A stretch of 64,000 bases of DNA, taken from contig JAVTVX010000035.1 in assembly GCA_033439265.1 (NCBI GenBank), forward strand, positions 10,256,001 to 10,320,000, given 5' to 3'. This DNA comes from Dillenia suffruticosa (lineage: Eukaryota; Streptophyta; Magnoliopsida; Dilleniales; Dilleniaceae). Positions within the stretch are counted from its first letter, which is position 1. Every line of letters begins with the position of its first letter. The position numbers and the translations under genes are program-made. Below, piece after piece: positions 901-43,530 of this stretch. A model generated the notes under the pieces. It saw only the letters and a program-made list of their open reading frames with translations. It was not told the origin of the DNA and made no database searches.

Positions 901-1016
901 TCTAATCACATGCCCAGTCCAACAATAGAAACAAAACAGCTTTGGTAGTGAAACTTTATGGCCCAACATAAGTCTTTTGACATCGCTGAAAAGCTTTAGG
1001 AAAAAAAGAGATACAA

Positions 1017-1090
1017 TGTCTAAGCTCGGGTTTGAACTAGGGACCTCTAGTGTGTGAGACTTGTGTCATAACCAACTACACCACCCAAAC
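1017..1090 (-). pseudogene. tRNA-Val(CAC)-like copy 1
   Basis: Full-length 74 nt. The anticodon loop reads CTCACAC (anticodon CAC) and the acceptor stem pairs with wobbles. The T stem has two mismatches and the anticodon stem one, so this is probably a pseudogene. The A-box core GTGTAGTTGG and a B box GTTCAAACC remain. Confidence 0.7.
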
Positions 1091-1235
1091 CATTGATGAT
1101 AAAACAATCAAAGGGAAATAAATTCAATCCCCCTATTATTACGAATAAATGCAATCATTGAAGCTAATAAAGTTTTGTTATATTCTTTCCATTTAATATC
1201 AACGCAAACAGCATGAAAGAAAGAAGGGCTTTCCA

Positions 1236-1700
1236 CTTGTCAGGCCCTTTTCCCATACTATTGTAAATGGATACTTTTGTTAACATGTCCCTTTCCACCT
1301 CTTTTAACTTAAGCCATTGATAAAATTTTTTGAAAGTTTCATTTTTTGTTTCACTAACTGCTTTCCTTATTATTCCTGGTTACAACTTATTTCTTTAAAT
1401 TTTTCTTGCCTTTACTTGTGTAAAGTAAAGTATAAGCGGTACTTTCGCCTTTACTTTTTTTTGTATTTCCTTTTTCCATCACCAAGACTTTTAATTTAGA
1501 GGTACATGCCCTTTTTCTCATCAAATCCACTCTTGGCCAATGTTTTCACATGAAGCATCATCTTCCCTTATGCCATATCAAGGTCACTATGTATTTCTCC
1601 TAAGGCTTGTTCTCCTACTCTCTTCTTAAAATTGTTTCGTTTTTGATCGTTTAAATTCCAGCACTTAATCCTAAGGGTTGTACACACTTTCTTTCTTCGA
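1236..1700 (-). pseudogene. RTE-type LINE pol fragment, array unit 1
   Basis: Minus-strand remnant of the LINE linker between endonuclease and reverse transcriptase. The DNA aligns throughout with the better-preserved copies at 11987-12241 and 12842-13078, but stops and frameshifts break the frame. It cannot make a working protein because both catalytic domains are absent. Confidence 0.6.
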
Positions 1701-1908
1701 ATACTGTGCTTGAAGAAAGTGCTTGGGTATTTTCTTGGGTTTTTGTTTTGTTATGATGAATGTGAAAATGCAAAATAAAAACCAAGTTAGACATGTCTAA
1801 TGACAAGCCCACAACAACGGAAGCAAAATAGCTCTGATAATGAAGCTATACGACCAAACATAAGTCTTTTGACATCACTGAAAAGTTTTTGAAAGATCTG
1901 AGATAAAA

Positions 1909-1982
1909 TGTTTGAGCTCGGGTTCGAATCGAGGACCTCTACTGTGTGAGACAAGCATGATAACGAACTACACCACCTAGAC
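1909..1982 (-). pseudogene. tRNA-Val(CAC)-like copy 2
   Basis: 74 nt with anticodon CAC. The T loop TTCGAAC is kept, but acceptor and anticodon stems each carry mismatches and the A box reads GTGTAGTTCG. Probable pseudogene. Confidence 0.7.
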
Positions 1983-2131
1983 TATTTAAGGTAAAATAGT
2001 CAAGGGGGAATAAATTCAATCCCCTTACTGTTACGAACAAATGAAATCATAGATGCAAATAAAATTTTAGTTGTTATTTTCTTTCCTTATCATATCAATT
2101 CAAAAAGAATGAAAGAAAGAATGTCTTTCTA

Positions 2132-2730
2132 CTTGTCAGGCCCTTTCCCCATACTATTGTGAACATATACTATTGTAAATACGTCCCTTTCCACCTCTTT
2201 CGTCTTAAGCAGTTGATAAAAGTTTTTGAAAGTTTCATTTTTGGTTTCACTCACTGCTCTGTTCACCTCTTTTTTGGTTATAATGTACTTCTCTAAATGT
2301 TTCTCATTTTTACTAATGTAGAGTATATTATAAACAGTACTTTTCGTCTTTCCTTACGTTTGTATTTCCTTTTTGCACCAACAACATTTTTTATTTAGAG
2401 GTACATGTCCATTTTCTCACAAAATCCACTCTTAGCCATCATTTTCACATCAAATGTTATCATCCCTCATGCTGTATTAAGGTCACTATATATTTATCCT
2501 AAGACTTGTTCTCCTACCCTCTCGTTAAAATTGTTTCGTTTGCATCATTTAAATTCCACCACTTAATCCTAAGGGTTGTGCACATTTTCCTTCTATGAAT
2601 ACTATGCTTGAAGAAAGTTTTAGCGTATTTTCTTGGGTTTTTGTTTTCTATTGATGAATGCAAAAATGCAAAATAAAAACCAAGCAAGACATGCCTAATG
2701 ACAAGCCCAATCTTCAACGGAAGCAAAATA
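2132..2730 (-). pseudogene. RTE-type LINE pol fragment, array unit 2
   Basis: The minus-strand ORF at 2514-2726 contains TTLRIKWWNLND, matching the (R/K)(I/T)KWWKLK segment that begins the endonuclease-RT linker of plant RTE-type LINEs (often auto-named craniofacial development protein 2-like). The downstream part (plus 2132-2510) keeps the array reading but is frameshifted. Its neighbours are tRNA copies 2 and 3 on the same strand. Confidence 0.65.
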
Positions 2731-2808
2731 GCTTTCGTAGGGAAGCGCTATAGCCCAACATAAGCCTTTTTACAACATTGAAAAGTTTGAGAAAGAGCTG
2801 AGGTAGAA

Positions 2809-2882
2809 TGTCTAAGCCCGAGTTCGAATCGAGGACCTCTAGTGTATAAGACTAGCATGATAACAAACAACACCACCCAGAC
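2809..2882 (-). pseudogene. tRNA-Val-derived copy 3, anticodon drifted to TAT
   Basis: 74 nt. The anticodon loop reads CTTATAC, so the anticodon would be UAU instead of CAC through two C-to-T changes on the tRNA strand. The A box (GTTGTTTGTT) and T stem are also damaged. Confidence 0.65.
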
Positions 2883-3080
2883 CATTGAAGGAAAAACAGT
2901 CAAAGAGGGATAAGTTCATTACCCTTACTATTTTGAACAGATACAATCATTGAAGCAAATAAAATTTTTGCTGTTATGTTCTTTCCCTTTCATATCAGTG
3001 CAAACAGTAAGAAAGAAAGAAGGACCTTCTACTTGTCAAGCCCTTTTCCCCTACTATTATGAACAAATACTATACTGAAT

Positions 3081-3085
3081 ATGTC
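3081..3085. repeat. Left target-site duplication of the gypsy element
   Basis: ATGTC here matches ACGTC at 9447-9451 with one substitution. The unbroken array sequence at this point is ATACGTCCC. Confidence 0.7.
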
Positions 3086-4559
3086 GATAGGGTTTAAATG
3101 AGTGTAATATTTACAATTGATTTTGTATTATTTTTGAATAAATATTACATTAATATTTATGTTTTATGACAATTGATTTAGGAGGAGATTTATTATGAAA
3201 AATAAAGAAAAACAAGCTAAATTGGAGTAATTTTGAAATGCATGAAAAATTTGACAGGAATGCTCTTTCATTAGTACGTGGGCACGCTGAATTTGAGAAG
3301 AAATACAAGACTTTTGAAGATTCTTTTCCTAATATTAAGGAGTGTAAAATTTTGGGAAGTTGCAAATGTCAAAAAATACTCTATTTAGGATTTTTCTTTT
3401 ACCATAAGTTTTTAGAGTTTTATTTATTAGGGAGTTTCATTCAATTTTAGAAAATATTTTTGAATAATTTTTCTAAGGTAAAGATAAGAAGATTTTACCT
3501 TTTGCTTTAGGGTTGCACCTGGCTCTTGGGATATATATATTGCCCTATTCTTGACTTTAGAGAGACAACACTTTTGGGGAGGCAGCAGCTGGGCAGCCCC
3601 GTTGGGGGCAGCAAACATCATTTTCTCTAGGAGGAAAAGGGGGCAGTAGCACTACTCACGTCCATTGTAGCAGCCGGCCGAGGAGCATTTTTGCAATAAT
3701 GTAGTTCCAACATTCCCATTCCATTTTTATTTATTTGTGAGTTTTTCTTTTTATATATTTTATTTCTGATTTAATTTTCTAGTCAAAGGATTTTTGAAAC
3801 ATTGATGAATGATAATTATGAGATCTAAATGATCTTATTTGCTTGATAGTTTTGGGTATTTATTTAATCTCTATATTTAATGTTTATGATTGTTTTGGGT
3901 TTGTTAAATAGTGCGCTATATTTAATAACCCTAAAATAGTCTACAAAGATTTAAAAACAGCAACCTTTGTGTGTTTTTAATAGAGTAGTAATTGACATAG
4001 TTTTATGACCTCACAAACGGTAGGATTCATATCAAGAGATTAGATAATCTAATTTAAATAAATCCAGATTGGAATTTATTGGTTAGAATTAGATCTCTCT
4101 AGATTTTAATTCTGTCAGAATATTAAATCCAATGAGGGTCTCTTGGGTTGTTTTTCGATTAGAGAAGTAATTAACGATAGTATCTTGATTATCGAAAAAG
4201 TAAGGAGAGATTGGACGTTTCGTGATCCTTAACGGCTATAACCAATTATTTATATAATATCGAGTAATTTTTGTATCGATAATCAATGAAACACATCAAG
4301 GTAGAAATAACTCATTTGGCTAGATTTTACTGTCATTGACATTCTCTCTTTTAATTAGCATTATTTAGTTGTTTTATTTTAGTTAATTTTTATTGAGTTA
4401 TTTTTTTTTGTTAGGTTTAGATAATTGCTCAAACCCCCTATATTTTCATTTTACTTGAAAGAGATAAATCCACCGTTCCCTGTTGATTCGACCCTACTCA
4501 CCCTAAACTTGTCTTTAGTGAAGTAAGTATTTTATTTTTAATTGTTTGACGACACACCA
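3086..4559 (+). repeat. 5' LTR (1474 bp)
   Basis: Direct repeat partner of 7973-9446. The first T of the expected TG start is missing or changed (sequence GTCGATAGG). A TATA-like run ATATATATAT at 3531-3540, followed by TTGCCCTATTC, is a plausible U3 promoter. Short ORFs inside, such as 3238-3450, are not supported as genes because they fall in LTR sequence and are broken in the other LTR. Confidence 0.9.
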
Positions 4560-4564
4560 AATTT

Positions 4565-4582
4565 TGACACCGTTGCGGGGGA
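4565..4582 (+). other. Primer binding site, tRNA-Asp type
   Basis: TGACACCGTTGCGGGGGA, five bases after the 5' LTR, matches the complement of the 3' end of plant tRNA-Asp(GUC), TGGCGCCGTTGCCGGGGA, with three differences. This primer is typical of Athila-type gypsy elements. Confidence 0.75.
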
Positions 4583-4859
4583 ACGGCGGTGTTAAGTGAT
4601 TTATTTCTTTTAAGTTTTGTTTCATTTTTATTTTTGGGACTAATATTTGCGGTGAACTTACTGGAAGTTTGTCAACAACGTAGAAAAGAAGGATTTTAAA
4701 CACTCGGACATGGCCAGTCAAAAGATTTTGAGGGAGTTGTTATTTCCTGATTATAATTAACACACCTTTTGCAGTGATTTTCTTAATATTGAGATGTCCC
4801 GACAATTTGAAATATGAAAAGATGTTTCAAAAACGGTCAATGAGGTAAGTGATTTTTCT

Positions 4860-5444
4860 CTTCGTCAAGAATTGAGAGAACTAATGTCCCTTATGCGTAA
4901 TTTTATTGTAGGAAAAAAACAACCGGTACAAACTTGTGGAATTTGTTCAGAGATGAATCATCCAACCGATAAGTATCCATTCTGTATGGTGACCCATATT
5001 CGAACATCTACAACCAAGGAAGGTGGGATCAACCAAACTTCAGTTATGGAAATTGGTAACAAAGTTCCCCCAACAACTACAATGTCGACCACAATTTCAA
5101 CCACATCAATCCTCTTCAAATCAAGGTATGTCTATAGAAGAAATTGTTAAAAGTTTGGCTAACAGCACTCAATTGTTTCAACAGGAAACCCAACGGTTAC
5201 AATAGGAAAACTAATGATTTCAACTATAGACAAGAACCAGCATCCAAAACTTGGAAAATCAGGTGTCGCAACTGGCAACGACCATGAGTCGAATAGAGAA
5301 AAATAATGGGAAGCTACCCTCTCAAGTAGAGATCAACCTGAGAGAAAATATGAGTGTTATGGTGGTCAAGAATGAAAGGAAATTATAAGACAACTCATCG
5401 ACAACTGAAGGAGATAAAGAGGCCGAACAAAGCAAAGTATCAAT
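4860..5444 (+). pseudogene. gag: Retrotransposon gag remnant with damaged zinc knuckle
   Basis: The ORF at 4872-5150 carries CGICSEMNHPTDKYP, a CX2CX4HX4C knuckle whose last Cys is Tyr. It is followed, after a frame change near 5100, by SIEEIVKSLANSTQLFQQ and then NLENQVSQLAT...KLPSQ. This order (knuckle, MEDLVKxLAxxxxxFQQET-like helix, IQNLExQxGQLA, GKLPSQ) is characteristic of plant Athila-type gag C termini. A stop lies at 5203-5205 and others follow, so it is not translatable as one protein. The N-terminal gag is hard to recognise. Confidence 0.8.
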
Positions 5445-5445
5445 A

Positions 5446-5790
5446 TTGAATGAATCGGCCACGAAGGTAAGTGAGGAACCGAACAACTCAAATTTGAAAC
5501 TGACTATCTCTTCTTCTTTTCCTGGTAGGTTGGCATATTCCGAGGAACAAGATGATGAGAAGGAGATGGATTTCATTGTTCATGACTTTTTTATGCAAAA
5601 TAAATTGGATTTTTGGTTTGAAGAGAATTTTACAAATAATTTTGCACAATGGGACAAATTTTTTCAAGACAAACTCCCATATCAAAAGCAATTTATGGTA
5701 GGCCAAATAGTCCTTAATTTCATTTCAAGATTAAAATTCATGTCAGGCAAGTTTGAAATCAAAATGGACTGGACCGGTTTTTGAACAAAG
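5446..5790 (+). pseudogene. gag tail joined to integrase C-terminal scrap (pol deleted)
   Basis: The 112-codon ORF begins with gag-tail-like sequence (SSSFPGRLAYSEEQDDEKEM, like PPFPxRLxKxKxEExEKEI of Athila gag). It ends with KQFMVGQIVLNFISRLKFMS and a GKFEIKMDWTGF segment, which resemble the FxxGQxVLLYNSRLxLFPGKLxSRWxGPF end of integrase. The several kilobases of pol that normally separate these two regions are missing. About 50 bp later, GGGAGGCAACTCAA is the motif that usually follows integrase in this family. The join is my inference from family layout. Confidence 0.65.
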
Positions 5791-5799
5791 AGCTAATGT

Positions 5800-7957
5800 C
5801 GAGCCAAAGATATTAAACAAAGGCATTTATTGGGAGGCAACTCAATATTTTCTTTATGATTTATTTATTTATTTTTATTTTTATTTATTTATTATCATAT
5901 ATGTTAGCTTGATTTATGATTGATTCTAAAAAAAAACATAAGTACTCCTTGTTTAAAGCGTGACCACGCCTTAAGCCAAATCCATTTCTGTCCACACAAA
6001 TCACATGGACAGCTTTGCTCCTTACTTATGGCGTGTCCACGCCCTAGGTGAATTCCATTTTAGCCAAAGGAGCATACATTTCACTGCATGACTAGAAACA
6101 CTCTTTATTTAGGACGTACCCATGTCCTAACCACACTTCACTTCTGAAAAAAATAAATAAAAAAAATAAATAAAAAAAAAAGAAAAAAAAAGAAAGAGAG
6201 AGAGAAGCGAATTTCACTTCTATTTTAACACTTGCATTTCATTTTTTTTAGGACTTCTCTCTCTACCTTAAAGTCTCAAGAATGGACCAAAATGCTTGAT
6301 GATTACGAAGTGCCCACGTCATAGCTCTTTTTTCAATTTATTGGAATTGTTTCTCCATTCTCCACTCCGCCCTAGGGGAGTATTGTTCTCACCTTCCTCT
6401 TTTATTTCTTTATGTTTTTCTTTTATTTTGTATGATTGATTTTAAGCATTTTTTTATTCTTTTCCTTTTTCTCTCTTTTAACATGAGTATACATTAGGGA
6501 CAATATATGATCTAGGTGTGGGGGGATGTTAGGCGTTTCCTTCTTTATTTTTTTATTTTTTTGACACTATATTTATTTTTTTACTATATTAGTTTAGATT
6601 TTATTTCTTCAAAAATAAAAAAATAATAAAAAAATTTGAAAAAAAATTGAAAAAAAAATTCCGAGTTTTCTTAGTTGATATATGTTATTTGGTTGACTAG
6701 AGATATATGAAAAATGGTTTGTATCAATAACTTTTGTGCATGAAATGGGTACTTATATTTTTAATATTTTTATTTGAATGATGAACATGCAAAGATTTGA
6801 CACAAAACCTACTTAAAAAGTGATGTTTTGAGCTTAAGATGAGCAAATTCATTTTTTGTGTTTGGGATTATTTTTCTTGATGAGTGACTATCACACTTGG
6901 ATTGCACATTCTAGAACTTGTATTGTTATACATTTCAAGACCACACCCTAAAATTTTATGCATTGAAATGACAAAAACACTTAGGTTTTACCCCTTTTGG
7001 CTTTCTAAAATCCCTACTTTGATTTCATAAACCCGTAGTTAACCCAATTTGAGTCTTTTCCCTTTTTCTTCTTTAAAACTCACTTAATACAACACCTAAC
7101 CTTTGATTTTTGCTTTCGTTTCAAACCCTTGTACCAAAGGTATATATATTTAATTGCATGATTTTGGTTTTATGTTCACCTCAATACGAAAATGAGAATT
7201 GAAATTTTGATGTTGACAATTTCATAAAGATGATATATGTTTGAAAAAAAAGCAAGAGAAAAAAAAAAGAGAAAAATGATGAAAAAAAAAAGAAAAGAAA
7301 AAAAAAAGGTGGATGAGAAAGAGAAGTGTTGCATTTTGATTGAAAATTTATTCATTTATACTTCAGTTATGGGGATTAGAAAAATCGATTGACATTCTTG
7401 TATACTATTTGCTATTGGCTATACATTTGAAGAGCAAGAAGTTAAATTTTGTTTGTTATTTGTTTAAGGTAAAGATCGATCAATGTTATGAAAATTGTGT
7501 AGATTGATTATATATTACCTTTGGTATATTTTTAACCCTTAAATATCACCTTATCCTACCCTTTACCTAAGTTCCGTTACAACCAAATAAAAGACCTTTA
7601 GATTGATGCATGAAATTCCAATTTTTAAGTATTGGAGATTTGATATATTTGCCGGCATATGGTAATGACATTCCATGTTGTTGAATTGAGAGACATATAT
7701 ATTTTTTACCCTTTTGAGTGCATTAGAGTGATCCCTTGGAGAGGATTGTCGAATCTTGCTATTTGGATTTCATAAGATACTGTTGGGATATGTAGTGGTT
7801 GTTTTAGTACATAATGCTATGAAATACTTGTTGTTTCCATTATGTTTTCTGTTTGACTCTTATAGTAATTGTTGACTTGGAAGTTTAGAAGGAAAAAATT
7901 AGGTTGGATAGTTTTAATTTTATTTGAATTAGGGATACTTGAGGACAAGTATCATTT
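5800..7957 (+). other. Non-coding 3' interior of the gypsy element
   Basis: A/T-rich with long A and T runs (6150-6200, 6600-6660, 7245-7320). I see no ORF with recognisable similarity. An internal GACAATATATGATCTAGGTG at about 6500 resembles the sequence around the end purine tract and may be a duplicated or older tract. Two short sections with GCGTGNCCACGCC-like wording (5960-6130) recur but I cannot assign them. Confidence 0.5.
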
Positions 7958-7972
7958 AGGTGTGGGAAAATT
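7958..7972 (+). other. Polypurine tract of the gypsy element
   Basis: AGGTGTGGGAAAATT lies directly before the 3' LTR start at 7973, preceded by GAGGACAAGTATCATTT. This placement and wording are usual for plus-strand priming in Athila-like elements. Confidence 0.65.
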
Positions 7973-9446
7973 TGATAGGCTTTAAATGAGTGTAATATTT
8001 GCAATTGATTTTGTATTATTTTTGAATAAATATTATATTAATATTTATGTTTTATGACATTTGATTTAGGAGAAGATTTATTATGGAAAATGAAGAAAAA
8101 CAAGCTAAATTAGAGTAATTTTGCAAAGCATGGAAAATTTGATTGGAATGCTCTTTCATTAGTATGTGGGCATGCTGAATTTGAGGAGAAATAGAAGACT
8201 TTTGAAGATTCTTTTCCTAATATTAAGAAGTGTGAAATTTTGGGAAGTTGCAAATGTCAAAAATACTATATTTAGGAATTTTCTTTTACTGGAAGTTTTT
8301 AGAGTTTTATTTCTTAGGGAGTTTCATTCAATTTTAGAAAATATTTTTGAATAATTTTACTAAGGTAAAAATAGGAAGATTTTACCTTTTGGCTTTAGGG
8401 TTGCACCTGGCTCTTGGTATATATATATTGCCCTATTCTTGACTTTAGAGAGACAACACTTTTGGGGAGGCAGCAGCCGGGGAGCCCCGTTGGGGGCAGC
8501 AAACACCATTTTCTCCAGGACGAAAAGGGGGCAACAGCACTATTCACATCCATAGTAGTAGCCAGCCGAGAAGCATTTTTGCAATAATGTAGTTCCAACA
8601 TTCCCATTCCATTTTTATTTATTTGTGAGTTTTTCTTTTTATATGTTTTATTTCTAATTTAATTTTCTAGTCAAAAGATTTTTGAAATCTTGATGAATGA
8701 TGATTATGAGATCTAAATGATCTTATTTGCTTGATATTTGTGGGTATTTATTTAATCTCTATATTTAATGTTTATAATTGTTTCAGATTTGTTAAATAGA
8801 GCGCTATATTTAATAACGTTAAAATGGTCTACAACCATTTAAAAACAGCAAGATTATGTGTTTTTAATAGAGTGGTAATTGACATAGTTTTATGACCTCG
8901 CAAGCGGTAGGATTGATGTCAAGAGATTAGATAATCTAATTTAAATAAATCCAGGTTGAAATTTATTGGTTAGAATTGGGTCTCTTTAAATCTTAATGCT
9001 ATCGAAACATTAAATCTAATGAGAGTCTCTTGGGTTGTCATTCGATTAGGAAAGTAATTAACGATGGTATCTTGATTACCGTAGAAGTAAGGAGAGATTG
9101 AACGTTTTGTGATACTTAACGGCTATAACGAATTTATTCATATAATATCGAGTAATTTTTGCATCAATGATCAATCAAATACATCAAGGTGGAAATAACT
9201 CCTTTGGTTAGGTTTTACTCTCATTGACATTCTCTGTTTTAATTAGCATTATTTAGTTATTTTATTTTAGTTAATTTTCATTGAATTATTTATTTTTGTT
9301 AGGTTTAGATAATTGTTCAAACCCCCTATATTTTCATTTTACTTGAAAGAGATAAATCCGTCGTTCCCTATGGATTCGACCTGCTCACCTTAGACTTGTC
9401 TTTAGTGAAGTAAGTATTTTATTTTTGATTGTTTGACGACACACCA
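7973..9446 (+). repeat. 3' LTR (1474 bp)
   Basis: Begins TGATAGG and ends ACACCA. It has the same length as the 5' LTR, with scattered substitutions. Target duplication ACGTC follows at 9447-9451 and the tandem array resumes. Confidence 0.9.
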
Positions 9447-10074
9447 ACGTCCCTTTCCACCTCTTTCGCATTAAGCCATAGATAAAAGTTTTTGAAAGTT
9501 TAGTTTTTGGTTTCACAGACTACTCTCCTCAGCTCTTTCTTGGTTATAGCATGTTTCTCTAAATTTTCTTGCTTTTACTCATGTAGAGTAAATTCTAAGT
9601 GGTACTTTTCGCCTTTACTTTTTCTTGTTTTTCCTCTTTCTACCTCCAAGATTTTTTATTTAGAGGTACATACCCAATTTCTCACCAAATCCACTCTTAG
9701 CCATTGTTTTAACATGAAACATCATCCTTACTCATGCCTTATCAAGGTTACTATGTATTTCTCCTGATGCTTGTTCTCCTACCCTCTCCTGAAAATTGTT
9801 TCATTTTTGATCGTTTAAATTCCAGCACTTAATCCTAACGGTTGTGTACAGTTTCCTTTTACGAATACTGCGCTTGAAGAAAGTGCATGGGTATTTTCTT
9901 GGGTTTTTGTTTTGTTATGATGAATGTGAAAATGCAAAATAAAAACCAAGTAAGACATGTCTAATGACAACCCAGTCCAACAACGGAAGCAAAACAGCTT
10001 TGATAGTGAAGTGATATGACCCAACATAAGTCTTTTGACATCACTGAAAAGTTTTAGAAAGAGCTGAGATAAAA

Positions 10075-10148: not shown

Positions 10149-10297
10149 CATTGAAAGAAAAATAGTGAAAGGGGAATAAACTCAATCCCCCTACTGTTAC
10201 GAACAAATGAAATCATTGGCGCAAATAAAATTTTAGCTGTTATATTCTTTTCCTTTTATATCAATACAAAAAGCATGAAAGAAAGAATGTCTTTCTA

Positions 10298-17880: not shown

Positions 17881-17893
17881 TTAAAAAAAATAC

Positions 17894-33611: not shown

Positions 33612-35483
33612 ATGGTTGACAGTTTCGATGTTGCGGCCATAGACGAAATTCTGATAGAAGATCATGCTCTTCACCATCATAGTCCGCTTCTGCACCTTTG
33701 CAATCCCATTCCCTTGTCGGCAATGTACCTTCGCCTCCCCTTTCTGTTGCAGGCCCTTCGCATTCTCAACAAATTGCTAGTAATGTACTTACTAGTCCCT
33801 TCGGTAGAACACTCTTATGCAGATAGGGAAGACAATCGAGAGTTGATAGCCCCTTATGGAGATTCATAAGTACTAAATTTTAAATTTTCATATGTATTAT
33901 TTCTTTTATTTATAAAACAAATTATTTTTTAACTATTTTGTTTATTTAACATTGTTTGTTTGAAACTTTATGATGGATTTATAAATTCTGTATATGTTAT
34001 TCATGATCTTAATAGAATAGTGAACAACCATTGGGGAGGGGTTTCGATGACTTACACAAGCACTCCGGAAGAAACAAAAGAGCTATGGTAGAGCGAGTTC
34101 AAGGTAAGTTATCCCAATCAATTTATATATGAAATTAAGTTAATAACTTTATAATCAATTAGTTTTTTTCCATTACAACGACTATTCACTTAGGACGAGA
34201 TTGAACAGTTGGAAGTAAGAAGGATTTTCAAGAAAAAATGTGACGATCACATCCGACACGTTCTAAATCATGCGAAGAGACACGAAAAAAAGCCAAACTA
34301 TATCACCAAGCAAAATTGGGGCATGATTGTGAATTTTTGGAAATAGGAGGAGAGCAAACGAAGGAGTGAGCAGAATAAAAAATAACTGAGTTTATAATTC
34401 AGGGGAATTGTCTGCGACGTATGCGCGAGGCTTGATCAATATCGGTGAACATAGAAATAGATTGGTAATTTTATACAAACACTAATTTTTTTAATTTAAT
34501 TTAAACTATTTCATTATTTCTAACCGTGTTTTTTTTATTTTAAACCAACGAAACGGGGACCGAGCCTTCATTCATAGATACTTTCACACGTACATTTTAG
34601 AAAAAAGACAAGACTTGGAGTGGGGAGAGAGTTTGAGCAATTAAGGTTTGTAATTTCAAAACTTCCAATTATTTAATGAACATTTTCAATGTTGATTTAA
34701 ATATATTATATTGAACATATCATAACAATGTAGAAAGATAAATTTATTAGATTAACCTCTCCCAAGTTTATTTTTATTGCTAACTTGATTCTTTGATTTC
34801 TAATGAATTATTTGATAGAGATTCTCTTTTTTTTTCATAAATTTCAACTTATTCAATATTAATATGAATGTTCATAATTTAGATCCTATATAGTCTCATT
34901 ATTTATGTTACAATTTTTTTTTATTTTCCTTCATATATATTATATATATCTAATCAAAATTATATGTGCTTATATTAAATTGTTATTGTAAATTTATTTT
35001 AATTTTTCTTATGACAATACAGGAGAAATATGATGAGCTATCATGCAGAAATTCGAGTGCTAGTGATGATGCTGGCGGATCTGAACCATCTGTTGATAAC
35101 ATGAAAACATGGCTCTAGGTGATTGGTGTACCAAAAGGGGGTAGAGTAGTTGGGCTAGGTTCTTTGAGCAGAACTTACAAAATCGTTGGTTTTCTTCTTC
35201 CACCCCACCAGCAGTAAGGGCAGAAATAAATCAATTGAATTAAGAGGTGAGCCATTTGAAGAAGTTACTGCTGCAAAGAGATCAGGAATTCAATAAATTT
35301 CAAGCAAAGTATACGCAAGAAATGAACGAGTTTCGCACACAGCAAATGTTAATCATGCAGCATCTTCAGTTAGCTTCTGCTCCACGTCAGATTCCCCCTT
35401 CTATTTCTCCTCCTGACAATGCTCGCGATGGTGATGAAGGTGATGATTTCTTCAATGATGATGATGGTGGAGGTCGTGCTTAA
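33612..35483 (+). pseudogene. Second CACTA gene, Transposase_24-like (TNPA-position)
   Basis: Coding scraps are separated by A/T-rich, intron-like DNA: 34020-34110 (SEQPLGRGFDDLHKHSGRNK), 34195-34345 (DEIEQLEVRRIFKKKCDDHI, then RHVLNHAKRHEKKPNYITKQ), 34540-34620 (GTEPSFIDTFTRTYI), and 35020-35483 (EKYDELSCRN, GVPKGGRVVGLGSLSRTY, then a helix MSHLKKLLLQRDQEFNKFQA and an acidic end). The KGRVYGLGS-like motif, the PTxxExFxxTH-like motif and a C-terminal coiled coil are marks of the Transposase_24 family (PF03004), which sits downstream of TNP2 in many plant CACTA elements. Stops (for example TGGCTCTAG at 35109-35117) show decay. Confidence 0.78.
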
Positions 35484-35789
35484 AATTGTGTATTGTTATT
35501 TAATTGTTACATTTTGATACTCGTTACATTGATTTTTTTGGTTATGTATGGTTATTGATATTTTAATATTCAGATTTGATGTTGCTTTTATCTTTGATAT
35601 TACTATTATGATTTCTTGTTTAATTTTTAATTTATTGATCTTATAGAAAGTTAATTATATTGATGAGTATAGATAAATGAAATTTGATATAAAAAAATGA
35701 TTTGGATGATTAATTGTTGGTGAGGTTAGATGAGCAGGTATAAATACAGGTTAATAAGGAAAAATGATCCAAATATGCTAATAAAATTT
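35484..35789. other. A/T-rich 3' flank of the second CACTA gene
   Basis: Non-coding and rich in T. It probably holds the 3' UTR, but I see no distinct polyadenylation or other signal I would defend. Confidence 0.4.
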
Positions 35790-36470
35790 ATATTTGTCGT
35801 AAAATACATATTCGTCGCAAAATTTGTCTCTGAAAACTATGCTCGTCGCAAATTTCATTGCTAAAATTGAATTGTAAATTTTGATTAGCGACGAATTTTA
35901 TAACGAAAAACATTCATCGCAAATTTGCGATAAATTCTGTGACGAATTTTTTTTCATTCCTAGTTTGCCATGAATACCATTTCGTTGCAAAAATTCCGAC
36001 AAAAAAAACTATTCGTCATAAATTTGTGACAAAAATTAGATTCGTAGCAAATATACGACAAAAAATATTTCATGGCAAATTTATGACGAATTATTTTTCG
36101 TTGGTAATTTGCGATGAATAACTTATTCGTTGCAAAATTTGCAACAAATATTTTTTCGTCGCAAAATTAGTGACGAAAATGTTATTCGTCACAAATTCGC
36201 AACAAATAAAATTTTCGTCCCAAATTTTGCAACGAAAATTTTATTTGTTACAAATTTACGACGAAAATTTTATTTGTTGTACATTTGCGACGAATAAAAT
36301 TTTTGTTGCTAAATTTGTTGCACATTTGCAACGATTTTTGCAACAAAAAAATATTTGTTGGAAATTTTTGCGACGAATAATTAATTTTTCATCCCAAAAT
36401 TTTGCGACGGCTTATTAGCAAAAAAAAAAATTTGTTGCAAAATTCGTCACAAATTTGTCGCAAATTGATG
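35790..36470. repeat. Right subterminal repeat field of the large CACTA
   Basis: Repeats such as TTCGTCGCAAAATTTG and TTTGCGACGAAT, closely spaced and in both orientations. It corresponds in motif to the left field but lacks the GGGAC variants seen at 24240-24370. Confidence 0.8.
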
Positions 36471-36735
36471 TTTTTTTGTAGTGACCTCTTAATCCTAACA
36501 GTTCTATACACTTTCTTTCTATGAATATTATGCTTGAAGAAAGTTCTTGGGTATTTTCTCGGGTTTTTGTTTTGTTATGATGAATGTGAAAATGCAAAAT
36601 AAAAACCAAGTAAGACATGCCTAATGGCAAGCCCAATAAAACAACGGAAGCTAAACAGCTTTCGTAGGGAAGTGCTACAGCCCAACATAAGTCTTTTGAC
36701 ATCACTAAAAAGTTTGAGAAAGAGTTGAGATTGAA

Positions 36736-36809
36736 TGTTTGAGCCCTGGTTCGAACCGGGGACCTCTAGTGTGTGAGACTAGCATGATAACCAACTACAC
36801 TACCCAGAC
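36736..36809 (-). tRNA. tRNA-Val(CAC), fairly well-folded copy 17
   Basis: Anticodon CAC with a perfect stem, A box GTGTAGTTGG, B box GGTTCGAACC. There is one mismatch in the acceptor (C-A) and one in the T stem (G-A). It is a borderline gene or pseudogene. Confidence 0.45.
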
Positions 36810-37657
36810 CATTGAAGGTAAAACTATCATAGGGGGATAAATTCATTTGACCAACAATTTTGAATAGATACATTCATTGAAGCAAATAAATTTTTTGTTG
36901 TTATGCTCTTTCCCTATGATATCAATGCACACAGCCAGAAAGAAAGAAGGTTCTTCTACTTGTTTGGCCCTTCTCCCTATTATTGTGAACAAATACTATT
37001 GTGAATATGTCTCTTTCCACATCTTTTGTGTTAAGCTATAGATAAAAGTTTTTGAAAGTTTCATTTTTGGTTTCACTAACTACTCTTCTCACCTCATTCT
37101 TGGTTACAATGTATTTCTCTAGATTTTTCTTGCTTTTACTAGTGTAGAGTAAATTATAAGCGGTGCTTTTCGCCTTTATGTTTTCTTGTATTTTCTTTTT
37201 CCACCACCTAGATTTTTTATTTAGAGGTACATGCCCCTTTTCTCACCAAATCTACTCTTAGCCATCGTTTTCATATGTAGTGTCATCTTCCCTCATGCCA
37301 TATTAAGGTAACTATGTATTTCTCTTAAGGCATGTTCTCCTACAATCTCCTTAAAATTGTTTCGTTTTTCATCCTTTAAATTCCACCAATTAATCCTAAG
37401 GGTTGTGCACACTTTCCTTGTATGAATATTGTTCTTGAAGAAAGTGCTTGGGTATTTTCTTGGGTTTTTGTTTTGTTATGATGAATGCAAAAATGCAAAA
37501 TAAAAACCAAGTAAGATATGCCTAATGACTAGCCCAATCCACTAACGAAAGCAAAACAGCTTTGGCAGTGAAGCGTTATGGCCCAACATAAGTCTTTTGA
37601 CATTACTAAAAAGTTTTAGAAAGAGTTGAAAAAGTTTTAGAAAGAGTTGAGGTGAAA

Positions 37658-37730
37658 TGTGTGAGCCTGGGTTCGAACCAAGGACCTCTATGTGTAAGAC
37701 TAGCGTGATAACCAATTACATCACAAAGAC
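37658..37730 (-). pseudogene. tRNA-Val-derived copy 18, anticodon TAC
   Basis: 73 nt, one base lost in the anticodon arm. Loop CTTACAC. The acceptor 5' strand reads GTCTTTG and no longer pairs well. Confidence 0.6.
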
Positions 37731-38496
37731 CAATGTATGTGAAATAGTCAATGGGGAATAAATTCAATCCCCTACTATTACAAACAGATGCAATTTTTGA
37801 AGCAAATAAAATTTTTGCTATTATATTATTTCCCTTTCATATCAATGCAAATAGCATGAAAGAACGGTCTTTCTACTTGTCAGGACCTTCCCCCATACTA
37901 TTGTGAACAAATACTATTGTGAACATGTCCCTTTCCATCTTTTTCGTCTTAAGCCGTTGATAAAAGTTTTTGAATGTTTCATTTTTGGTTTCACTTACTG
38001 CTTGCTTTACCTCTTTCTTTGTTACAACGTACTTCTCTATATTTTTCTTCTTTTTCCTTTTTTCACCACCAACATTTTTTATTTATAGGTACATGTCCAT
38101 TTCCTTACCAAATACACTTTTAGCCATCGTTTTCATATCTAACATCATCTTTACTCATGCCATATTAAAGTCACTATGTATTTCTTGTGAGATTGTTCTC
38201 CTACCCTCTCCTTAAAATTGTTTTGTTTTTCAGCGTTTAAATTCCACCACCTAATCCTAAGGGTTGTGCACACTTTCCTTGTATGAATACTATGTTTGAA
38301 GAAAGTTCTTGGGTATTTTCTTGGGTTTTGTTTTGTTATGATGAATGCAAAAATGCAAAATAAAAACCAAATAAGACATGCCTAATGACAAGCCCAAACC
38401 AACAACAGAAGCAAAACAGCTTTCGTAGGGAAATGCTACAACCCAATGTAAGTCTTTTGGCATCACTAAAAAGTTTGAGAAAGAGATGAGGTAGAA

Positions 38497-38570
38497 TGTC
38501 TGAACCTGGGTTCAAACCAATGACATCTAGTGTGTGAGACTAAATGGATAACCAACTACACCACCCAGAC
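38497..38570 (-). pseudogene. tRNA-Val(CAC)-like copy 19
   Basis: The acceptor GTCTGGG/TTCAGAC pairs with wobbles, the anticodon is CAC, and the anticodon stem TTAGT/ACTAG pairs. The T stem has one mismatch (ATTGG/CCAGG) and the B box is GGTTTGAACC, which may be active. It could be called a tRNA gene by a lenient search. Confidence 0.55.
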
Positions 38571-39383
38571 CATTGATGGTAAAACAGTCAAAGGAGGATA
38601 AATTCAATCTCCCTACTATTGTGAACAAACACAATCATTGAAGAAAATAAAACTTTTGCTGTTATGTTCTTTCCTTTTTATATCATTGCGAATAACATGA
38701 AAGGAAGAAGGTCCTTTTACTTGTCAAGCCCTTTCCCTACTTCTATTGTGAACAGATACTATTGTAAACATGTCCCTTTCCTGTTCTTTCGTGTTAAGCC
38801 ATTGGTAAAGGTTTTTGAAAGTTTCATTTTTGGACTTACTCATTGCTTACTTTGCCTCTTTCTTTGCTACTACGTACTTTTTCAATTTTTTGTCGTTTTT
38901 AGTTGTGTAGAGTAATTTATAGACAATTCTTTTTGCTTTTACTTTTTCTTGTATTTCTTTTTTCCACCACTAAGATTCTTTATTTAGAGGTACACGTCCT
39001 TTTCTCCCCTCATACACTCTTAGCCATCGTTATCTTCTGTCAAGCCATATTAAGGTCACAATGTATTTCCCATATGGCTTGTTCTCTTACTCTCACCGTA
39101 AAATTGTTTCATTTCTAATCGTTTAAATTCCATCACTTAATCCTAAGGGTTGTGCATACTTTCCTTCTATGAATACTATGCTTGAAGAAAGTTCTTGGGA
39201 TTTTTCTTGGGTTTTTATTTTGTTATGATGATTGCAAAAATGCAAAACAAAAACCAAGTAAGACATGCCTACTAACAAGACCAATCCAACAACAGAAGTA
39301 AAATAGCTTTGGTAAGGAAGCGTTACGGAACAACATTAGTCATTTGACATCACTTAAAAATTTGAGATAGAGCCAAGGAAAAA

Positions 39384-39457
39384 TGTTTAGGCCTAGGTTC
39401 AAACCGGAGACCTTTAGTGTGTGAGATTAGCGTGATAACCAGCTACACCACCTAGAC
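39384..39457 (-). pseudogene. tRNA-Val(CAC)-like copy 20
   Basis: Anticodon CAC. The anticodon stem CTAAT/ACTAA has two mismatches and the acceptor one. Confidence 0.65.
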
Positions 39458-39502
39458 CATTGAAGGTAAAACATTCAAAGGGGGACAAATTCAATCCCTC
39501 GA

Positions 39503-40030
39503 CTATTGTGAATAGATACAATCATTGAAGAAAGCAAAATTTTTGCTGTAACGTTTTGTCCCTTTCATATCATTGCAAACACACAAAATAATGAAGGTCC
39601 TTCTACTCGTCGGGCCCTTTCCCCTTAGTATTGTGAGCACGTCACTTTCCACTTCTTTCATGTTAAGCTTTTGATAAAAATTTTTGAAAGTTTTATTTTT
39701 GGTTTTACTCACTGCTCTCTTCACCTCCTTCTTAGCTATTACATATTTCTCTAAATTTTCCTCATTTTTATTAGTGCAGAGTAATTTATAAACTATTCTT
39801 TTCGCCTTTAATTTCTCTTATATTTCCTTTTTCTGCCACCATAGTTCTTTATTTAGAGGTATACGTCCTTTTTCTCACCAAATGCAATCTTAGCCATCGT
39901 GTTCATAAGAAATGTATCTTCTCTTATGCCACATTAAGGCTACTATGTATTTCTCTAAAGGCTTGTTCTCCTACTTCACCTTCAAATTATTTCATTTCTC
40001 ATCATTTAAATTCAACCACATAATCCTAAG
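39503..40030 (-). pseudogene. RTE-type LINE pol fragment, array unit 20
   Basis: The ORF 39503-39724 gives MKRAVSKTKNKTFKNFYQKL, MKEVESDVLTILRGKGP, a version with an in-frame deletion joining VLTI to RGKGP. The upstream KNEENLEKY and WWLNLNDE-like segments exist in other frames. Confidence 0.65.
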
Positions 40031-40266
40031 GTTTGTGCACACTTTCCTTCTATAAATACTATGCTTGAATAAAGTTCTTGGGTATTTTCTTGGGGTTTTG
40101 TTTTCTTATGATGAATGCAAAAATGAAAAATAAAAACCAAGTAAGATAGGCCAAACGACAAGCCCAATCCAACAACGGAAGCAAAACGGCTATGGTTGGG
40201 AAGTGCTATGGCCCAAGATAAGTCTTTTGACATCACTTAAAAGTTCGAGAAAGAGCCGAGGTAAAA

Positions 40267-40340
40267 TGTCTGAACCTGGGTATGATCTAGGGACCTCTAC
40301 TGTGTGAGACCAGCGTGATAACCAACTATACCATCTAGAC
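40267..40340 (-). pseudogene. tRNA-Val(CAC)-like copy 21
   Basis: Anticodon CAC, but the T loop is changed to TAGATCATAC, so the B box is lost. Confidence 0.6.
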
Positions 40341-40489
40341 CATTAAGGTAAAGCACTCAAAGGTGGATAAATGCTATCCCTCTACTATTGTGAACACATA
40401 CATTAATTGAAACAAATAACATTTTTGCTATTATGTTCTTTCCTTTTCATATCATTGCAAATAGCAGGAAAGAAAGGAGTTCCTTATAC

Positions 40490-40925
40490 TTGTCAGGCCC
40501 TTTCCCCCCTACTATTCTGAACTGATACTATATTGAAAACGTCCCTCTCCACTTCTTTCATGTTAAGCCGTTGATAAAAGATTTTGACAGTTTCTTTTTT
40601 GCTTTCACACATTGTTCTCTTCCCCTCTTTCTTGGCTACTACGTATTTCTCTAAATTTTTTTTCATTTTTACTAGTGTAAAGTAATTTATAAACAATTCT
40701 TTTCGCCTTTACTTTCTTTTGAATTTCATTTTTCCACTACCAAGATTCTTTATTTAGAGGTACATGTTCATTTTCTTATCAAATACAATCTTAGCCATCT
40801 TCATCTTCTCTCATGCCATATTAAGATCACTTTCTCCTAAGACTTGTTCTTCTACTCTCTCCTTAAAATTGTTTTGTTTCTCATTGTTCAAATTCAAGCA
40901 CTTAATCCTAAGGGTTATGCATACT
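40490..40925 (-). pseudogene. RTE-type LINE pol fragment, array unit 21
   Basis: The ORF 40493-40696 reads KMKKNLEKYVVAKKEGKRTM, CESKKETVKIFYQRLNMKEV, ERDVFNIVSVQNSRGERA. It retains the LEKYxxAKKExKR core better than most copies (AKKE rather than TKKE, closer to the RTE family). Confidence 0.7.
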
Positions 40926-41135
40926 TTCCTTCTGTGAATACAATGCTGAAGAAAGTTCTGGGGCTTTTGTTTTCTTAGGATGAATGTGAAAATGCAAAGT
41001 AAAAACTAAGCAAGACATGCCTAATGACAAGTCCAATCCAATAGCGAAAGCAAAACAGCTTTGGTTGGGAAGCACTACAGCCTAGGATAAGTCTTTAGAC
41101 ATCACTTAAAAGTTTGAGACAAATCCAAGGTAAAA

Positions 41136-41198
41136 TATCTGAGCTCGGGGACCTCTAGTCTGTAAGACTAGCGTGATAACCAACTGCACCACCCAAAC
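41136..41198 (-). pseudogene. tRNA-Val-derived copy 22 with T-arm deletion, anticodon TAC
   Basis: 63 nt. The T loop and one side of the T stem are deleted (CTCGGGGACC in plus orientation), removing the B box. Loop CTTACAG. Confidence 0.65.
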
Positions 41199-42008
41199 CA
41201 TTGAAGGTAAAATAGTCAAAGGGGATAAATTCAATCCACCTACTATTGTGAATAGATACAATCATTGAAGCAAATAAAATTTTTGCTATTATGTTCTTTC
41301 CTTTTCATATCAATGCCAGTAGCATGAAAGAAAGAATGTCCTTCATATCAAAACAAAACAGTCAGGCCCTTTCCCATTACTATTGTGAGCATGTCCCTTT
41401 CCACTTGTTTCGTGTTAAGCCGTTGATAAAAGTTTTTAAAAGTTTCATTTTTGGTTTCACTCACTACTCTCTTCAACTCTTTTTTGGTTACAATGTACTT
41501 CTCTAAATTTTTCTCGTTTTTACTGTAAAGTAATTTATAGATAGTTCTCAGCTTGACTTTCTCTTGTATTTCATTTTTCCACCACCAAAATTCTTTTTTA
41601 GAGGTTCACATCCTGTTTCTAACCAAATGCATTCTTAGCCATCATTTTCACATGAAACATCATCTTCTCTCATGCCATATTGAGGTCATTATTTCTCCTA
41701 TGGTTTGTTTTCTTAGTTTATCATTAAATTGTTTCATTTCTCATTTTTTAAATTCCACTACGTAATCCTAATGGTTGTGCACACTTTCCTTCTATGAATA
41801 CTATGCTTGAAGCAAGTTCTTGTGTATTTTCTTGGGTTTTTATTTTCTTCTGATGAATGCGAAAATGCAAATTAAAAACCATGGAAGACAAGCCTAATGA
41901 CAAGCCCAATCCAACAACAGAAGCAAAATGACTTTGGTTGGGAAGCGTTATGGTCCAGGATAACTCTTTTGACATCATTTAAAAGTTCGAGAAAGAGCCA
42001 AGGTAAAA

Positions 42009-42083
42009 TCTCTGAGGCTGGGCTCGAACCAGGGGACCTCTAGTGTATGAGACTAACATAATAGTCAACTACACCACCCATAC
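42009..42083 (-). pseudogene. tRNA-Val-derived copy 23, anticodon CAT
   Basis: 75 nt with one extra G beside the T stem. Loop CTCATAC. The B box GGTTCGAGCCC is good, but the acceptor strands GTATGGG/CTCAGAG carry mismatches. Confidence 0.6.
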
Positions 42084-42430
42084 CATTGAAGGTGAAACAA
42101 TCAAAGGGGGTAAATTCAAGCCTCCCCCTACCATTGTGAACAGATACAATCATTAAAGGAAATAAAATTTTTGATGTTTATGTTCTTTTCTTTTCATACC
42201 AGTGCAAACCGCATGAAAGAAAGCAGGGCGTTCTACTTGTCAGACCATTTCCCCCTATTATTGTGAATAGATGTCCCTTTACCGTTCTTTTGTTTTAAAC
42301 CGTTGATACAAGTCTTTGAAAACCACATTTTTGGTCTCGCTCACTACTCTCTTCAACTCTTTCTTGGATACTGCATACTTCTCTAAATTTTTCTCATTTT
42401 TTACTAATGTAAAGTAATTTATAGATAATT

Positions 42431-43390
42431 CTTTTCACCTAACAAGTTGTTCCCTATCAAGTTTCATATTACACTTCTTTTATTAGATTTAGACTTATTT
42501 ATTTTTTTATCATACTTCCTTTCAATAAGGAAAACTAAGGATTTATAATAAAATAAATTTATTACTAAAAAAAATCCATAAAATCATTCTTAATTTGAAG
42601 GATTTTCAAAATTAAGTTAACTACTAATTTTAAAAATATTGCTATCAACTAAAATAAGGAAACTATTATTTCTCTTAGAATATTTCCTTTTTAATAGTTT
42701 TTAAATATTTTTCTAAATACATTTTTTCTAGTAATATGCACCTTTTAAAATAATTCTTTCAAATAATATCCAAATGCGTATGATTATTCCCCTCCTAGAC
42801 AAAGAGCTTGTCCTCAAACTCAAATTCAAGATGGGTCTACTCAAATCTTCAAGAACTCCCAATAAGTCTCCTCCCTCGTCCTCTTCTTTAGACTTCCTAA
42901 AATTTCCCTTTTCTACAAATTTAGTATCATCAAGACATGTTTCCATAACGAAATACGTCACTTACAGACAGGCTATCAATTGCATTGCCAGATCATCATT
43001 CAGTTCCCTAAGGATCTGGCTAGATCATCATCTAGTTCTCTGAAGATATCTCCACAAGAGAAATTATGTCTCATTGTTCATCTCTATTAAGACATCAAAT
43101 TTTTTTCTTTATTAGTCATACTTCATTTAAATAAGGGAAACTAGGGATTTACAACAAAATAGAATTCTCACTAATAACAAATCTCTAAAATCATTTACAA
43201 TATGAATTATTCACAAAACTAAAGTAACTACTAATTTTAAAAATATTACTATCAAAATAAGGAAACTGCTATTTATCATAAAATATTTCTTTTTTACTAG
43301 TTTCTACATATTTTTCTAAAAAATCTCTTTACAATGATATGCATTTACTAAAATAAAATTTTCCAATAATATCTAATTGCATATCATTCT
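42431..43390. repeat. Unassigned insert with 604-bp partial tandem duplication
   Basis: A stretch beginning CATACTTC at 42511 recurs at 43115 and can be followed for about 270 bp (shared wording CTACTAATTTTAAAAATATT and AAATAAGGAAACT), ending near 42785 and 43393. Between them, on the minus strand (42728-42961), an ORF contains NLSLRTSSLSRRG, loosely like the short tail after gypsy pol, but the match is too brief to rely on. The insert interrupts the tandem array. Confidence 0.5.
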
Positions 43391-43530
43391 CTTATTCTCT
43401 CCTTAAAATTGTTTCATTTCTTGTCCTTTAAATTCCACCACTTAATCGTAAGGGTTGTGCACACTTTCCTTTTATGAATACCATACTTGAAGAAAGTTTT
43501 GAGTATCTTCAAATTCCACCACTTAAGGAC
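43391..43530 (-). repeat. Scrap of the tRNA/LINE array unit
   Basis: TCTCCTTAAAATTGTTTCAT through TTATGAATACCATACTTGAA is the LINE-spacer junction of the array unit. AAATTCCACCACTTAA occurs at about 43431 and again at about 43510, the second copy leading straight into copia coding sequence. Confidence 0.75.

Follow-up and report, generated by a model that had tools for sequence, protein, structure and literature searches.

The window, as the whole analysed stretch of 64,000 nucleotides of Dillenia suffruticosa contig C35 is called here, lies within a long tandem array of units of about 900 bp bearing tRNA heads of the tRNA-Val(CAC) type, and it is very probable that unequal exchange, starting from a tandem duplication, expanded a tRNA-Val(CAC) gene into an array that resembles satellite DNA and is largely in decay. 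Aligned to the unit consensus, the window shows 22 such heads, all on the minus strand; a preliminary description had claimed at least 23 tRNA-Val-like sequences on one strand, of which the strand was right and the count was not. The unit consists of the tRNA gene and ~827 bp of anonymous flank, and the TTTT terminator is present at intact copies in the array. The window is composed as follows (window positions).

899-3085, minus strand: array block 1, with two complete units plus fragments (blastn of unit and unit consensus)
1017-1090, 1909-1982, 2809-2882, minus strand: tRNA heads of block 1 (2809-2882 with an Rfam tRNA score of 46.8 bits)
3086-9448, no strand assigned: LTR-type insertion (sequence by eye; gap in unit coverage)
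about 3090-4560 and 7977-9447, no strand assigned: ~1.47-kb direct repeats at both ends of this insertion (by eye)
9447-16548, minus strand: array block 2, eight heads (ARAGORN, Rfam, unit alignment)
10148, 11035, 11840 (truncated), 12734, 13628, 14522, 15323, 16063, minus strand: head ends of block 2
10075-10148, 12661-12734, 14449-14522, minus strand: Val(CAC) genes of block 2 (ARAGORN)
10962-11035, minus strand: copy with Ile(TAT) anticodon in block 2 (ARAGORN)
13560-13628, 15250-15323, 15990-16063, minus strand: further tRNA matches in block 2 (Rfam)
11841-12734, minus strand: a good instance of one complete unit, 894 bp in length, its intact tRNA-Val(CAC) head being 12661-12734 (ARAGORN; Rfam 56.6 bits; unit borders)
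16549-19233, no strand assigned: insertion with ends CACTACAA...TTGTAGTA, which we take from the end motif to be of the CACTA type; 3-bp target duplication TAA
19234-23043, minus strand: array block 3, containing four heads whose ends are 19488 (partial), 20293, 21193 and 22464 (ARAGORN, Rfam, unit alignment)
21120-21193, minus strand: Val(CAC) gene of block 3 (ARAGORN)
23044-36483, no strand assigned: CACTA element with ends CACTACAA...TTGTAGTG and 3-bp target duplication ACC, containing pieces of tnp2 transposase (PF02992) and DUF4216 (PF13952) by Pfam
36484-42435, minus strand: array block 4, seven heads (ARAGORN, unit alignment)
36809, 37730, 38570, 39457, 40340, 41198, 42083, minus strand: head ends of block 4
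36736-36809, 38497-38570, minus strand: Val(CAC) genes of block 4 (ARAGORN; both below the Rfam gathering score)
43387-43510, minus strand: short unit remnant, consensus 252-376 (unit-consensus alignment)
43506-63426, no strand assigned: 19.9-kb interruption of the array (gap in unit coverage)
63427-64000, minus strand: resumption of the array, its head lying beyond the window at C35:10,320,327 (unit alignment)

When 100 kb on each side were added to the window, the unit-consensus alignment over these 264 kb gave 142 HSPs with 0 on the plus strand, all heads being on the minus strand. The array to which the window belongs (the left C35 array, C35:10,244,173-10,401,488) spans 157 kb and includes 107 heads and 98,320 bp (~98 kb) of unit sequence with a median unit of 897 bp; as the preliminary description had it, the array resumes near the position 63424 given there (at ~63.4 kb) and exceeds the window, running to C35:10,401,488. 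The spacing of ~890-900 bp proposed there agrees with the lengths of 15 window units (892, 900, 887, 805, 894, 894, 894, 801, 740, 921, 840, 887, 883, 858, and 885 bp), some of which are shortened. Pairwise identity among these 15 units is 78-90%.

In the whole genome a 30-mer of the unit body was found at 277 places, with 0 for the reversed control, and a 26-mer at 222 places, the searches being complete to 1 and 2 mismatches, respectively; the 100 places listed for each are all on C8 and C35. The number of 30-mer places against the reversed control, together with the identity of the units, excludes chance, and unit alignments, body-copy matches, and the 264-kb span jointly support a satellite-like head-to-tail array with a full tRNA-Val gene. 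Related arrays are situated at 11.03-11.30 Mb of C35, on the opposite strand, and at 13.77-14.01 Mb of C8. With a pericentromeric location of the arrays in mind, the stretch separating the two on C35 (10.46-10.98 Mb) was sampled in five 1.5-kb pieces, which contained no unit and no satellite, only short simple repeats. The C8 array and the right C35 array are near-identical, which may reflect recent duplication, homeologs, or unpurged haplotypes, and near-exact repeats could partly be assembly artefacts.

The amplified element is a canonical tRNA gene, since the array tRNA consensus shows no difference from five single-copy tRNA-Val(CAC) genes located on C5, C10 (two), C19, and C30, and, as in plant tandem tRNA clusters, one isoacceptor is repeated head-to-tail on the same strand with a spacing of about 1 kb or less. 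In the window ARAGORN takes 7 of the 22 heads (6 Val-CAC and 1 Ile-TAT) and Rfam takes 9 at gathering score, resulting in 11 accepted heads for both programs combined and the other half rejected by both; in the whole left C35 span 63/107 heads are ARAGORN-positive, so the near-total rejection as tRNA that had been named in advance as contrary evidence did not occur. tRNA-Val(CAC) has likewise been amplified on C4, in a 1,488-bp unit that has only the tRNA and a few bases in common with the present one, and on C17 in a unit of about 490 bp with the tRNA and some 75 bp in common, while tRNA-Ile(TAT) is amplified on C1 in an 819-bp unit. Since the tandem units bearing tRNA-Val(CAC) are of at least three kinds, whose flanks are unrelated or nearly so, and tRNA-Ile(TAT) has a further one, it can be tentatively proposed, with the balance still against it, that the tRNA gene itself nucleates tandem amplification, the founders being functional when copied and decaying later; fork stalling at Pol III genes could begin the exchanges. 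If true, tRNA genes would be seeds of new satellites.

Unequal exchange, suggested earlier as the origin of the array, is the likeliest one judging by the pattern of unit identity. Mean unit identity is 0.887 within the young part of the array, 0.822 within the old part, and 0.779 between them. In the young part the mean identities at lags 1-6 are 0.895, 0.907, 0.893, 0.901, 0.894, and 0.910, lags 2, 4, and 6 being slightly favoured, and one lag-6 pair of units is 100% identical, while in the old part A and B units alternate. Of 84 neighbouring full units in this comparison, 62 are physically adjacent. Duplication and homogenisation are inferred from the head-to-tail order, the unit-length periodicity, the lag preference, the identical lag-6 pair, and the drop of identity between regions; the long head-to-tail arrays, higher-order repeats (their signal being slight), and regional homogenisation are those of satellite DNA.

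The fate of the copies was estimated on a flank-built tree of 108 units, where tRNA changes observed were compared with those expected. On terminal branches 396 tRNA changes were observed versus 375.4 expected (O/E 1.055) and on internal branches 130 versus 153.4 (O/E 0.848, with 10.8% of flank windows as low), with Fisher p=0.12; in a post hoc split the internal changes numbered 14 versus about 34 expected at A/T sites and 38 versus about 32 at CG. Overall, the tRNA has diverged by 8.8% and the flank by 11.5%, and 6.1% of flank windows reach a value as low as that of the tRNA. These comparisons of sequence suggest that the tRNA is substituted about as often as its flank, some measures hinting at past constraint. 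Transitions in the flank reach 0.178 at CG, 0.228 at CHG, 0.083 at CHH, and 0.039 at A/T, and such an excess at CG and CHG would be as expected of DNA-methylated heterochromatin.

These data bear on the proposal of a tRNA reservoir, according to which selection maintains the array as a source of tRNA-Val(CAC), perhaps only in particular cells, as has been reported of the Arabidopsis Ser/Tyr (SYY) cluster; it is improbable here, as the tree shows the tRNA behaving like the flank on terminal branches and only slightly below it on internal ones, and perfect single-copy genes are present elsewhere in the genome. The CAC anticodon is retained in 45 of the 63 ARAGORN genes of the 157-kb span, which would favour a reservoir, but the other 18 carry another anticodon and 44/107 heads are not accepted at all. 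Likewise, in the young part 34/48 heads are intact versus 41.5% simulated, with 4.33 substitutions per tRNA versus 6.81 expected, both figures being those of copies that share recent ancestry, and one C8 group (C8a) has 7/7 intact (simulated 89.9%), but the old part stands at the neutral level (5/20 ARAGORN-positive versus 26.7% in neutral simulation) and the remaining groups have 0/2 (C8b), 1/4 (C8c), and 3/7 and 0/3 (right C35). Most flank windows contain more gaps than the tRNA does (8 openings in the tRNA versus a median of 18 in 74-column flank windows, 5.7% of which are as low; 0.0009 versus 0.0028 per bp), the flank being AT-rich. Several subfamily tRNA consensuses are nearly identical despite differing flanks: in 8/28 pairs the tRNA differs at 0-3 of 74 positions against 3-20% for the flank, in the remaining 20/28 the tRNA differs at 4-14, and C8a heads diverge from the overall consensus by 1.35% within the tRNA but by 16.1% within the flank. 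Thus the reservoir suggested in the preliminary description finds no support in the old part and may still apply to the younger one.

Far less probable, indeed hardly credible, is a retroposon, either a SINE or a Helenus-type tRNA-bearing TRIM whose copies turned tandem, as reported for Cassandra. Every unit has a tRNA head at one end, and Helenus TRIM LTRs are described as containing tRNA-like sequence (PMC10886601) and Cassandra as forming long tandem arrays (PMC7215508); however, the array tRNA consensus equals the canonical gene, while the tRNA-like parts of Helenus are reported not to support tRNA function (PMC10886601). The TRIM with two LTRs was rejected since the unit contains no direct repeat of LTR length, the longest self-match in its self-comparison being 23 bp at E<=1. 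The claim that one and the same RTE-type LINE pol piece comes after each tRNA, and with it the composite of tRNA and LINE fragment, was not borne out: none of the six reading frames of the unit consensus, translated with X for stops, gave a Pfam reverse transcriptase, and all that they matched was Arc_C (E=0.17) and Rhabdo_glycop_FD (E=0.97), neither of which reached the cut-off. A SINE with a LINE-related tail was rejected on the same result, a test unable to catch a short LINE 3' end without coding sequence, and a SINE with dispersed copies and target-site duplications because all body matches among those listed are confined to the arrays on C8 and C35, so the genome-wide dispersal named beforehand as contrary evidence did not occur among these places.

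The unit consensus also contains a stable hairpin at 201-260 (z -4.3), which was rejected as a conserved RNA, double changes that keep pairing numbering 8 versus a permutation mean of 19.7, and showed no sign of structural selection, with 1445 kept pairs versus 1462 in permutations. Rfam at E<=1 on 1.7 kb indicated no second RNA in the unit, giving only the tRNA and sub-threshold miRNA models (matches at 11678-11747).

According to the preferred reading, that of unequal exchange, the starting point would have been a canonical nuclear tRNA-Val(CAC) gene that underwent tandem duplication together with about 827 bp of flank and was then enlarged into the satellite-like left C35 (107 heads), right C35, and C8 arrays; founder copies were probably functional when amplified, and individual copies would then mostly drift. 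CACTA and LTR elements were inserted into the older part of the array, with 3-bp target duplications at the CACTA insertions. The Pol III promoter is internal to tRNA genes, and intact copies, mostly of the young part, may by their sequence still be transcribable by Pol III.

The array shows a tRNA cluster grown to the size of a satellite, and a single genome displays several of its stages, including younger regular ~900-bp units, an older decayed and transposon-broken part, a nearly identical array on a different contig, and distinct arrays of this isoacceptor and of another. With such material one can examine whether satellites are seeded by tRNA genes and at what point the copies of a cluster cease being genes; also, tRNA gene counts in such genomes may include many decaying array copies, some with altered anticodons.

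Among known systems, Xenopus laevis tDNA also consists of kilobase-scale tandem tRNA-bearing units, its 3.18-kb repeat, unlike the present unit, having several tRNAs. The human 1q23.3 variable-number tandem repeat shares kilobase-scale tandem units with tRNA genes, its 7.3-kb unit being GC-rich and binding CTCF (PMC4041453), and Entamoeba histolytica shares tandem arrays of tRNA-bearing units, which hold almost all its tRNA genes, a unit there carrying as many as 5 tRNAs and spacers that resemble microsatellites (PMC2652664). No tRNA-Val(CAC) array of such kind was found in the open-licence literature searched, including passages of PMC9526063. Plant surveys describe 28 tRNA-Ile genes in maize and clusters of 2 to 110 genes, formed, like the present array, by tandem duplication of single tRNA types (PMC12652284; PMC11700998); they count high-confidence genes, whereas here decayed copies are a large share of the repeat. 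In Arabidopsis thaliana the tandem clusters comprise 27 tRNA-Pro genes, the Tyr-Tyr-Ser "SYY" cluster, and tRNA-Cys in 0.4-kb units; they are DNA-methylated, the role of methylation in the SYY cluster being debated, and the Cys cluster, preceded by a pseudogene, varies by whole units (PMC12308677; PMC10701932; PMC12652284). For the latter an origin as tandem Helitrons, the hallmark of which is TC...CTRR ends plus a 3' hairpin, has been proposed (PMC10701932); in the present unit a hairpin was noted at consensus 201-260, with no covariation in its support. The present array resembles the Arabidopsis clusters in head-to-tail tRNA genes of one or few isoacceptors and short repeat units, and differs from them in Val(CAC), the ~900-bp unit, 107 heads in one array with two more arrays, the weak higher-order structure, the 44 heads that ARAGORN does not accept, and methylation inferred from substitutions. 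It is best read as an exceptionally large instance of the tRNA clusters known from plants, one that behaves like satellite DNA.

The window covers positions 10,256,001-10,320,000 of contig C35 in a 596-Mb genome of 37 contigs. On its minus strand, blastn with a probe whose first part is an intact tRNA-Val(CAC) recovered a unit of about 900 bp, headed by a tRNA-Val(CAC)-type sequence. The unit blocks and the elements lying inside the array are as follows (window positions).

899-3085, minus strand, array unit block (blastn)
3086-9448, LTR-type element inside the array, terminal repeats of about 1.47 kb, judged by eye
9447-16548, minus strand, array unit block (blastn)
16549-19233, CACTA-type transposon inside the array, 3-bp target duplication
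19234-23043, minus strand, array unit block (blastn)
23044-36483, CACTA-type transposon inside the array, 3-bp target duplication
36484-42435, minus strand, array unit block (blastn)
43387-43510, minus strand, array unit block (blastn)
63427 onward, minus strand, array unit block (blastn)

The insertion at 16549-19233 is presumably CACTA-type, judging from its end motif, and no ORF in the LTR-type element at 3086-9448 reaches 150 aa. AT-rich short repeats of the "GACGAA" type are numerous near both CACTA-type transposons and also occur at 1-900 and at 57-59 kb. The unit spacing given in the preliminary description (892, 900, 887, 894 bp, etc.) was recovered, while its figure of at least 23 heads came down slightly to 22, 11 of which were accepted by ARAGORN (7) or Rfam (9). 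The copy at 10962-11035 combines a Val-type body with an Ile(TAT) anticodon.

At the start of the unit consensus stands a tRNA-Val(CAC) whose sequence is the same as that of single-copy genes on contigs C5, C10 (two), C19, and C30; next come TTTT and an anonymous, AT-rich flank of about 827 bp. The RTE-type LINE fragment previously proposed as the second part of the unit was not borne out, since no frame of the consensus has Pfam similarity to reverse transcriptase. Rfam returned only the tRNA and sub-threshold miRNA models for the unit; the hairpin at consensus 201-260 is stable and lacks covariation support.

When 100 kb was added on each side of the window (264 kb in total), the array was found to span C35:10,244,173-10,401,488, with 142 HSPs, 107 heads, 98,320 bp of unit, and nine internal gaps of more than 300 bp; no plus-strand HSP of the unit was present over the 264 kb. 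None of the 63 ARAGORN tRNAs in this region is more than 20 bp away from a head of the array; their anticodons are Val(CAC) (45), Val(AAC) (5), Val(TAC) (3), Met(CAT) (5), Ile(TAT) (2), Ile(AAT) (1), and Thr(CGT) (2). The Met, Thr, and Ile copies lie along the array.

Genome-wide, a 50-base tRNA core pattern with at most 3 mismatches has 93 places, clustered in this left C35 array, at C35 11.03-11.30 Mb (plus strand; the right C35 array), at C8 13.78-14.00 Mb (minus strand), and on C4 (eleven, 3.593-3.608 Mb), with single places on C5, C10 (two), C17 (two), C19, and C30. Unit-body patterns of 30 and 26 bases have 277 and 222 places, respectively (reversed control 0 and control 0); all 200 matches listed (100 of 277 and 100 of 222), a listing exhaustive up to 1 mismatch for the 30-base pattern and up to 2 for the 26-base one, fall on C8 13.77-14.01 Mb or C35.

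The C4 array (loci L048, L029, and L049; C4:3,591,671-3,609,521) also carries tRNA-Val(CAC), with 11 heads in a 1,488-bp unit whose copies are 97-99% identical and whose resemblance to the 900-bp unit is confined to the tRNA plus a few bases, the flanks being unrelated. The C17 locus (L047; C17:9,593,501-9,597,500) contains five mostly decayed tRNA-Val copies, some 380-500 bp apart; what it has in common with the 900-bp unit is the tRNA plus about 75 bp of 3' flank. On C1 (L050; C1:4,296,398-4,359,990) there are at least 24 tRNA places, many spaced 810-819 bp; the two heads read are both tRNA-Ile(TAT), and the spacer matches neither the 900-bp nor the C4 unit. The C4, C17, and C1 arrays, taken beside the 900-bp arrays, therefore indicate that this genome makes tandem tRNA arrays repeatedly, and from the same tRNA more than once. 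The tally, for C1 as for such arrays generally, is a lower bound, because 63 of 49,706 candidates were scored in the genome-wide tRNA search. On C13 one Ile(TAT) was read, with further tRNA places at 16.69-16.72 Mb among the matches listed.

Unit relationships were studied in 85 full-length units of the left C35 array, to which C8 and the right C35 array add 23 for a total of 108, after a length filter that dropped shorter units; 62 of 84 neighbouring full-length units are physically adjacent. Units of the young part share a mean identity of 0.887 and those of the old part 0.822, against 0.779 between the two parts. In the young part, the mean identity of units 2, 4, and 6 units apart is 0.907, 0.901, and 0.910, and slightly lower at distances of 1, 3, and 5 (0.895, 0.893, and 0.894); one pair six units apart is identical. 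Units of the old part show A/B alternation.

The C8 and right C35 arrays are antiparallel and 98% identical in two stretches (2.6 and 2.4 kb) of the 6 kb compared. One kilobase of sequence lying about 6 kb beyond the C8 array has a 97% match at C35:11,312,047 and 93% matches at two more places; a probe past the other edge matched a dispersed repeat and was uninformative. The near-identity of the two arrays may reflect recent duplication, homeologs, or unpurged haplotypes. Between C8:13.76-14.01 Mb and C35:11.03-11.31 Mb, antiparallel pieces are 97-98% identical, and further 93% copies exist.

Divergence of tRNA and flank by subfamily, and ARAGORN-positive units against neutral simulation (substitutions only; C8b outside the simulation)
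Old, 20 units: tRNA 12.5%, flank 10.4%; 5/20 against 26.7%
Middle, 17 units: 10.6%, 8.2%; 11/17 against 50.5%
Young, 48 units: 5.9%, 6.9%; 34/48 against 41.5%
C8a, 7 units: 1.2%, 2.1%; 7/7 against 89.9%
C8b, 2 units: 0%, 0.1%; 0/2
C8c, 4 units: 12.3%, 8.8%; 1/4 against 28.0%
Right C35, 7 units: 7.5%, 8.9%; 3/7 against 6.1%
Right C35, 3 units: 13.1%, 7.8%; 0/3 against 22.0%

Measured against the overall consensus over 102 units, the tRNA has diverged by 8.8% and the flank by 11.5%; 6.1% of flank windows reach the conservation of the tRNA. In a branch test on a flank-based tree with context-matched rates, 396 tRNA changes were observed on terminal branches against 375.4 expected, and 130 on internal branches against 153.4 expected (Fisher p=0.12). 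Transition rates are raised at CG (0.178) and CHG (0.228) over CHH (0.083), a pattern to be expected in methylated plant DNA. Against neutrality speak the ARAGORN success of the young part, a shortage of gaps in the tRNA (8 openings, where flank windows have a median of 18 and 5.7% of them have so few), the closeness of the tRNAs in 8 of the 28 pairings of subfamily consensus sequences, the distance of C8a from the overall consensus (1.35% in the tRNA, 16.1% in the flank), and the 14 internal A/T changes in the tRNA against about 34 expected, a split picked after seeing the data. The founder copies were probably functional at the time of amplification, most copies drifting afterwards.

Tandem tRNA clusters are a well-known kind in plants. 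Two reports give clusters of 27 Pro and of 27 Tyr-Tyr-Ser in Arabidopsis, 28 Ile in maize, and up to 110 genes per cluster in a 50-species survey (PMC12652284, PMC11700998). Further reports describe the Arabidopsis SYY cluster as methylated and silent in most tissues and active in root-cap cells (PMC12308677), the Arabidopsis tRNA-Cys clusters as varying by whole units (PMC10701932), and the fast turnover of tRNA clusters as linked to their interference with replication forks (PMC2888827). The left C35 array fits this kind; it is distinguished by how large and how decayed it is and by the fact that a single tRNA was amplified repeatedly and independently.
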